DNA of 64,000 nucleotides from Armatimonas rosea (GTDB lineage Bacteria > Armatimonadota > Armatimonadia > Armatimonadales > Armatimonadaceae), in assembly GCF_014202505.1 (NCBI RefSeq), contig NZ_JACHGW010000002.1, positions 1,178,001-1,242,000 of the forward strand, in the 5' to 3' direction. Position 1 is the first letter of the stretch. The number at the start of each line of letters is the position of its first letter. A program made the position numbers and the translations under genes. This document shows, piece by piece, positions 44,985-45,599 of this stretch. The notes beneath the pieces were generated by a model. The model worked only from the letters and a program-made list of their open reading frames with translations, made no database searches and had not been told where the DNA came from.

Positions 44985-45599
44985 ATGCCGTGGATTAAGA
45001 CAGTCTCCCCCCAGGAGTCCGACGAGGTGCGCGAGGCGATGATGGCCCAGCGCCCGCTCTATCCCGCCGCCTACGCCGGGAGCCCCGAGAGCGCGACCCG
45101 GCTCCCACAAGCGGTCCTCGACGAGAGCATCGTGGCGTCGCACTCCCTCATCCCGGAGGCGCTGAAGCACGCTTTCTCCACCTTTGGGGTCCTGATGAAC
45201 CCGGCGCTTCCCCTCTCGCGCCGGGAGCACGAGCTGATCGCGGCGACTGTCTCGTCGCTGAATGCGTGCTTCTACTGAGTGGAGTCTCACGCAGAGTTTC
45301 TGCGTGTCGAGACCCTAGATAGCGCACTCTCAGAGGCGATCAAGCGTGACTGGCGCACCGCCCCCGGCCTCTCCGCGCGCGAGCTCGCCATCCTGACCTA
45401 TGTCGAGAAGCTCACCCGCCATGCCTATAAGATGGTCGCGGAGGACCTCGACGCGCTCCGGGACGTGGGGCTCGACGATACCGGAATCCTACAGGTGAAT
45501 CTGATTGCATCGTGGTTCAACTACATCAACCGGGTCGCGGATGGGCTGGGTGTGGGCAAGGCAGAGCGGGCAGTGGGACATGCTACAATGACTCCATGA
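44985..45599 (+). CDS. AhpD-like peroxidase-related selenoprotein (TGA98 read as Sec)
   Basis: Read through the TGA at 45276-45278 it is 204 aa. The upstream part ends [21 protein letters not shown] and the downstream part begins [11 protein letters not shown]. Joined, they match the carboxymuconolactone decarboxylase/peroxidase-related family, where the motif is N-x-C-x-Y-C-x-x-x-H. The family's second Cys, the AhpD nucleophile next to the relay His, is replaced by TGA here, giving C95-F-Y-U98-V-E-S-H102. The rest of the family continues cleanly: [42 protein letters not shown] hairpin fitting a bacterial SECIS follows the TGA. The gene starts 2 nt after the SBP gene and overlaps the next start (ATGA). 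Confidence 0.88.
45285..45313 (+). promoter_or_regulatory. Candidate bacterial SECIS hairpin
   Basis: The stem cacgcag (45288-45294) pairs perfectly with ctgcgtg (45300-45306) around the loop agttt (45295-45299). The apical loop begins 17 nt after the TGA (45276-45278) and its second base is G followed by U. Bacterial SECIS elements have a short stem-loop with a G in the first bases of the loop, about 16-37 nt after the UGA. An outer gtc/gac extension (45285-45287 with 45311-45313) lengthens it past a small bulge. Confidence 0.75.
45584..45589 (+). promoter_or_regulatory. -10 box, leaderless start of the GH2 gene
   Basis: TACAAT inside the end of the selenoprotein gene, 6 nt before the ATG at 45596. 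Confidence 0.6.

Follow-up and report, generated by a model that had tools for sequence, protein, structure and literature searches.

Zhang, Fomenko and Gladyshev (2005; PMC1088965) counted AhpD-like proteins with a CxxU motif (COG2128) among the families newly described from the Sargasso Sea selenoproteome, in agreement with the remark in the preliminary description of this DNA that AhpD-like selenoproteins form a known class. They rank among the most abundant selenoprotein families in GOS (PMC2398784) and appear under TIGR01926 in a review of 2026 (PMC13188914). The gene studied here lies in a window of 64,000 nt from Armatimonas rosea (the window being the whole stretch of DNA analyzed; Table 1) and belongs to this already known AhpD-like CxxU family (TIGR01926/COG2128), whereas the host and the gene are new. 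Judged from sequence comparison, the in-frame UGA of this small peroxidase-like gene almost certainly specifies selenocysteine, a rare amino acid.

Table 1. Coordinates of the features discussed (positions in the window, unless a locus or contig is named)
Feature	Position	Strand	Remarks
NMT1_2/SsuA-like ABC substrate-binding protein gene, Cys form	43990..44982	+	330 aa; C43 and C47 of PVTCHLTCPVT, C216
Codons for C-H-L-T-C	44116..44130	+	first codon, TGC 44116-44118, is TGA in 23 homologues
AhpD-like (TIGR01926) putative selenoprotein gene	44985..45599	+	ATG at 44985; 204 aa with Sec98; stop TGA 45597-45599
Codon of C95, presumed resolving Cys of the CxxU motif	45267..45269	+	
In-frame TGA read as selenocysteine 98, C95-F-Y-U98 motif	45276..45278	+	
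SECIS-like hairpin core CACGCAGAGUUUCUGCGUG	45288..45306	+	six-pair stem ACGCAG/CUGCGU, loop AGUUU, starts 9 nt after the TGA
Glycoside hydrolase family 2 (beta-galactosidase-like) gene	45599..49435	+	ATG overlaps the AhpD stop (TGATG)
ZMP/ZTP riboswitch	2029-2150	-	43.6 bits (gathering 39)
tRNA-Arg(TCG)	51339-51411	-	only tRNA gene within the window
CxxU gene and Cys paralogue, in tandem	L278 4978-5964 and 5867-6742	-	own contig C1, about 1467.98-1469.74 kb
TGA-form binding proteins	L158/L051 487-1527 (G018); L176 6656-7711 (G030); L177 6609-7670 (G211)		
Other TGA-form binding-protein loci	L197, L203, L205, L213, L215, L216, L220, L223-L225, L227-L230, L232-L234, L236-L238		

The in-frame UGA and its hairpin

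From its ATG, the frame of the AhpD-like gene has a single interruption, the TGA of codon 98, and then remains open to a second TGA. Since standard translation tables stop at TGA, ordinary annotation would truncate the gene. Translation of the first TGA as U yields 204 residues with the motif C95-F-Y-U98, in which U98 takes the second position of CxxC, four residues ahead of H102, where the preliminary description had placed it. The claim that the split protein matches its family throughout also stands: the 204-aa product scores 104.4 bits against TIGR01926 (cut-off 81.8), the match (residues 49-191) spanning the TGA, and the Pfam CMD cut-off is passed as well, again across the TGA. The product falls below the cut-offs of NF041238 (AhpD_rel_CFYUT; 64.3 vs 175) and TIGR00777 (AhpD sensu stricto; 19.6 vs 191.95). 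The 106 residues downstream of the TGA had been described as family-like in full, which holds for approximately 94 of them; the final 12 or so are unconserved. Residues P76, E83, C/U98, and H102 are invariant. Comparison of the gene with that of the congener G008 gave a dN/dS of 0.045 before the TGA and 0.086 after it.

At E 1e-15 or better, 37 of the 291 genomes of the phylum contain a match, and most of these matches have a single TGA, located at that very codon; Cys forms were observed in three genomes (G014, G046, and G053). A scan of public genomes returned 437 relatives, and among the best 80 of these 437 the codon is TGA in 78 and Cys in 2; judged by the names of their organisms, the nearest relatives put the window in Armatimonadota. 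Across the relatives the same TGA was found at 93 distinct Sec sites, distributed over Armatimonadota, Acidobacteriota, Planctomycetota, Cyanobacteria/Melainabacteria, Latescibacterota, Gemmatimonadota, and other phyla. An alignment of homologues at the TGA position, the check suggested in the preliminary description, found Sec or Cys alone at this site. Because the same TGA recurs at 93 distinct Sec sites of relatives and dN/dS against the congener is low, its occurrence in frame is not a matter of chance.

In Armatimonadota, selA was found in the genomes of 20/23 full-length Sec forms vs 0/3 Cys forms (p 0.008, an overstatement, since the relatives are not independent), so that Cys forms occur only where selA was not found. 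Three MAGs with a Sec form (G013, G026, and G041; completeness 97, 78, and 64%) gave no detectable selA. A different AhpD-like frame split by a stop, with an apparent signal peptide or lipoprotein start, was observed in G003 (L060 5032-6141) and is a possible exported AhpD selenoprotein.

The window hairpin is not exceptional in single-sequence folding (z about -1), and comparative analysis was used for this reason; a search of the TGA region against Rfam matched no family. In the relatives a hairpin, ACGCAGAGUUUCUGCGU, is conserved 3' of the TGA and is maintained via synonymous codon choice. Standard pairs occupy 517/558 stem-pair cells in the 93 distinct Sec sites vs 18/30 in five Cys sites. 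The stem Ala codon is GCA in 73/88 cases, and the stem CGT is present in 76/92, vs 13% of Ala codons and 13% of CGN codons, respectively, elsewhere in the same genes; likewise, the stem CTG (78/92) compares with 47% of CTN codons and the loop TTT (84/88) with 39%, binomial p-values for these codon choices being overstated because the sequences are related. Wobble positions that need to pair are fixed to the pairing base, in a direction that opposes the GC-rich codon preference. In two loci (L031 and L094) an Ala-to-Val replacement turns a stem C to U and the Leu wobble becomes A, restoring the pair. A Cys form from Latescibacterota (TGC; L139, around position 6283) retains the complete hairpin, and such an intact stem would be expected after a recent Sec-to-Cys change.

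The machinery for selenocysteine was searched for in the organism's own genome (6.33 Mb, 19 contigs, 98.2% complete), as had been suggested, and all four components were recovered above cut-off. The curated cut-offs are exceeded by selA (506.7 bits), selB (356.6 bits), and selD (372.3 bits). A tRNA-Sec gene is located at contig C2:169462-169555 (61.6 bits, gathering 47; ARAGORN tRNA-SeC, anticodon UCA); weak signals in the Rfam tRNA-Sec search appeared in all control genomes too, so only the match above threshold was counted.

Further in-frame TGA codons were observed in the same genome. The selD gene itself (L018, contig C4:581092-582057) has one in the context C-A-G-U-A-S-K-I-G and is apparently a selenoprotein gene. 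Another AhpD-like gene of the CxxU kind (LNRCKYUVSSHGGFLR, about 328 aa) is arranged in tandem with a Cys paralogue (LNQCKFCLSSH).

Three other readings of the TGA were weighed. As a true stop or nonsense mutation it would leave a pseudogene, or a 97-residue product followed by a separate GTG-started ORF of 106 residues, and the table 11 frame does end at 45278 with a GTG directly after it at 45279. Such a product, however, would lack H102 and half of the fold, and the presence of the same TGA in many phyla, the restriction of the site to Sec or Cys, the strong purifying selection downstream, the hairpin kept by synonymous choice, and the complete Sec machinery make a stop very improbable; the preliminary description, which had argued against a pseudogene from the downstream sequence, gains here from the TGA shared by relatives and the dN/dS after it. 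A sequencing or assembly error, with TGC or TGT as the true codon, is even harder to credit, for although the codon rests on one assembly here, the congener G008 and dozens of unrelated assemblies share the same TGA. Decoding as tryptophan or another sense codon under a variant code has a vanishingly small probability and was rejected because the AhpD-like gene itself ends in TGA, and tRNA-Sec(UCA), SelA, SelB, and SelD are present. We hold with high confidence, close to certainty, that the gene encodes an AhpD-fold selenoprotein and that SelB and tRNA-Sec would decode its UGA as selenocysteine with the aid of the hairpin nine bases downstream.

Fold and proposed chemistry of the AhpD-like protein

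The AlphaFold model of the protein (pLDDT 91.1, pTM 0.87) forms one continuous AhpD fold across U98, with a helical core carrying E83, C95/U98, and H102. U98 is located near the N-terminal start of helix 96-110, and C95 lies just ahead of it. The nearest solved chain is 2prr (Z 21.0, rmsd 2.9, 176 aligned), followed by 6k40 (Z 20.5, rmsd 2.2, 167 aligned).

Residues E118, C130/C133, and H137 of Mycobacterium tuberculosis AhpD, which we take to be the counterparts of E83, C95/U98, and H102, have the same spacing, from which we infer that U98 serves as the nucleophile and C95 as the resolving residue. By analogy, U98 would attack either a peroxide or a substrate with a disulfide or activated sulfur. 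C95 would then resolve the resulting selenenic acid (or mixed selenosulfide), after which the C95/U98 pair would be regenerated by a thiol reductant of the cell. The best supported role, as suggested by this likeness, is that of a cytosolic AhpD-type enzyme, a thiol-selenol peroxidase or disulfide reductase, acting through C95/U98. That the protein handles a ligand imported by the neighboring transporter is less certain.

The neighboring binding protein and its association with AhpD

The gene upstream of the AhpD-like gene had been noted as that of a substrate-binding protein 2 nt away, and the gap was confirmed. Its product carries the invariant motif PVTCHLTCPVT. In an alignment of 38 homologues, with Sec counted as Cys, residues C43, C47, and C216 never vary, and the second invariant Cys lies near the Sec/Cys position, in the loop after the first strand. 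Of the 26 homologues found in the phylum search, three (in G018, G030, and G211) have one in-frame TGA, located exactly at the first Cys, giving PVTUHLTCPVT. Further TGA forms were identified in Acidobacteriota (6 in 396 genomes) and Planctomycetota (14 in 294 genomes), so that 23/67 motif-bearing homologues from three phyla have TGA as the first Cys codon. Among the sequences of the commonest type, 16 distinct ones retain a hairpin, GGUCACC/GGUGACC, after the TGA; at its pair 20/32, 13 of them have C-G and the other 3 G-C, a compensatory swap that falls on the synonymous third bases of two Val codons. Genomes positive for selA account for 22/23 Sec-form vs 29/43 Cys-form binding proteins (p 0.012, overstated by the non-independence of relatives), and on a quick protein tree the letter switches between Sec and Cys at least nine times.

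These sequence comparisons give good support to a putative Sec-containing family of ABC substrate-binding proteins in Armatimonadota, Acidobacteriota, and Planctomycetota. No NCBIfam model scores above cut-off for the family, and no description of it was found in a limited library of literature, which makes its novelty provisional; the deep-Sep paper does not name a protein of this kind in its main text.

Permease and ATPase genes adjoin the binding-protein gene in most loci. In the studied genome their homologues are located on contig C3 (L283) with no binding-protein gene next to them, and the binding protein of the window may for this reason serve that permease and ATPase. Genes for UnbV/ASPIC, RnfD-like, and sometimes DUF1702 proteins recur beside the transporter (L176, L177, L242, L243, L263, and L064), with asparagine-synthase-like, radical SAM, and FAD halogenase-like genes additionally present in L176; the literature on UnbV/ASPIC with DUF1702 offered no function for this recurrent set.

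The Sec/Cys residue near a second Cys would suit a soft metal or electrophile as ligand, which is a guess, and an import receptor with a selenolate would suggest that a metal, an organometal, or some other soft electrophile is captured. A specific, high-affinity system for selenium transport is, according to the 2026 review (PMC13188914), still to be identified in prokaryotes. Taken together, these two points make the ligand a testable question.

The binding-protein and AhpD-like genes are adjacent in four genomes (G000, G018, G022, and G173), and in G018 both carry a TGA. In a fifth genome, G044, they share one cluster with the permease and ATPase genes, which are also part of the cluster in G173. 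Near this transporter, G020 and G023 encode another TIGR01926 protein, of the Cys form. Within the 291 genomes of the phylum, 19 are shared between the 25 and 26 genomes with the two genes, a strong co-occurrence calculated with phylogeny ignored. A universal pair was rejected, adjacency being observed in 1 of the best 80 of 437 AhpD loci, and this AhpD was found beside none of the binding-protein loci of Acidobacteriota or Planctomycetota.

Since five Armatimonadota genomes have the pair and the binding protein is apparently Sec-containing in relatives, the latter may well belong to the same function as the AhpD-like protein, and we infer a functional coupling of the two. In some Armatimonadota, the AhpD selenoenzyme could tentatively be seen as one half of a hitherto undescribed selenium-using uptake module, in which an importer with a PVT[U/C]HLTCPVT binding protein would deliver a ligand, presumably thiol- or selenol-reactive, for the selenoenzyme to process; we would put this at somewhat under an even chance.

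The AhpD selenoprotein might equally be a general antioxidant with the binding-protein and glycoside hydrolase genes as incidental neighbors. A general role is just as plausible because the AhpD gene is common without a nearby binding protein in Acidobacteriota, Planctomycetota, and other phyla; moreover, the binding protein of the congener G008 is located elsewhere, and the glycoside hydrolase neighbor is confined to the genus. Against it stand the five associations, which come from different Armatimonadota families and include permease and ATPase genes in two clusters, the second TIGR01926 protein near the same transporter, and the co-occurrence. The glycoside hydrolase gene is likely co-transcribed with the AhpD-like gene and probably lies outside the redox function.

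Comparison with known systems

The window protein agrees with the AhpD-like CxxU family in the model scored above cut-off, the CxxU motif, and the SECIS directly after the UGA, and extends the host range of this widespread selenoenzyme family by a member of the Armatimonadota; an adjacent binding protein with TGA-bearing relatives was not found in the literature consulted. NF041238 (hypothetical protein 1 of the Sargasso Sea) shares the CFYU motif and AhpD domain but is longer (357 positions). M. tuberculosis AhpD (1gu9, 1knc) has the same fold (Z 10.9) and the same Glu, CxxC, and His spacing, with Cys where the window protein has the predicted Sec. The debrominase Bmp8 (6ohi, 6ohj; Z 17.5, 12% identity) demonstrates that the AhpD fold is capable of chemistry beyond peroxide reduction, whereas no sign of a halogenated substrate was found for the window protein.

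In structure as well as in sequence, the binding protein is matched best by 3un6, a zinc-bound ABC substrate-binding protein of S. aureus (Z 32.9, 27% identity), in which both Cys of CHLTC are missing from the aligned sequence, LPITHSANLMMT. The named NCBIfam families that come closest to the binding protein, permease, and ATPase include the SAO (Sec-assisted organometallic) transporter SaoX/SaoP/SaoA, likewise a Sec-containing ABC importer. Its models all score far below cut-off (permease 168.6/295, ATPase 192.8/360), and the identification of the binding protein as SaoX (NF040735) was rejected, the window protein reaching 67.8 bits and its Sec homologues 61.8-68.8 against a cut-off of 300. 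The published SAO Sec motifs, UxP in SaoX and CUxxT in SaoB, differ from UHLTC.
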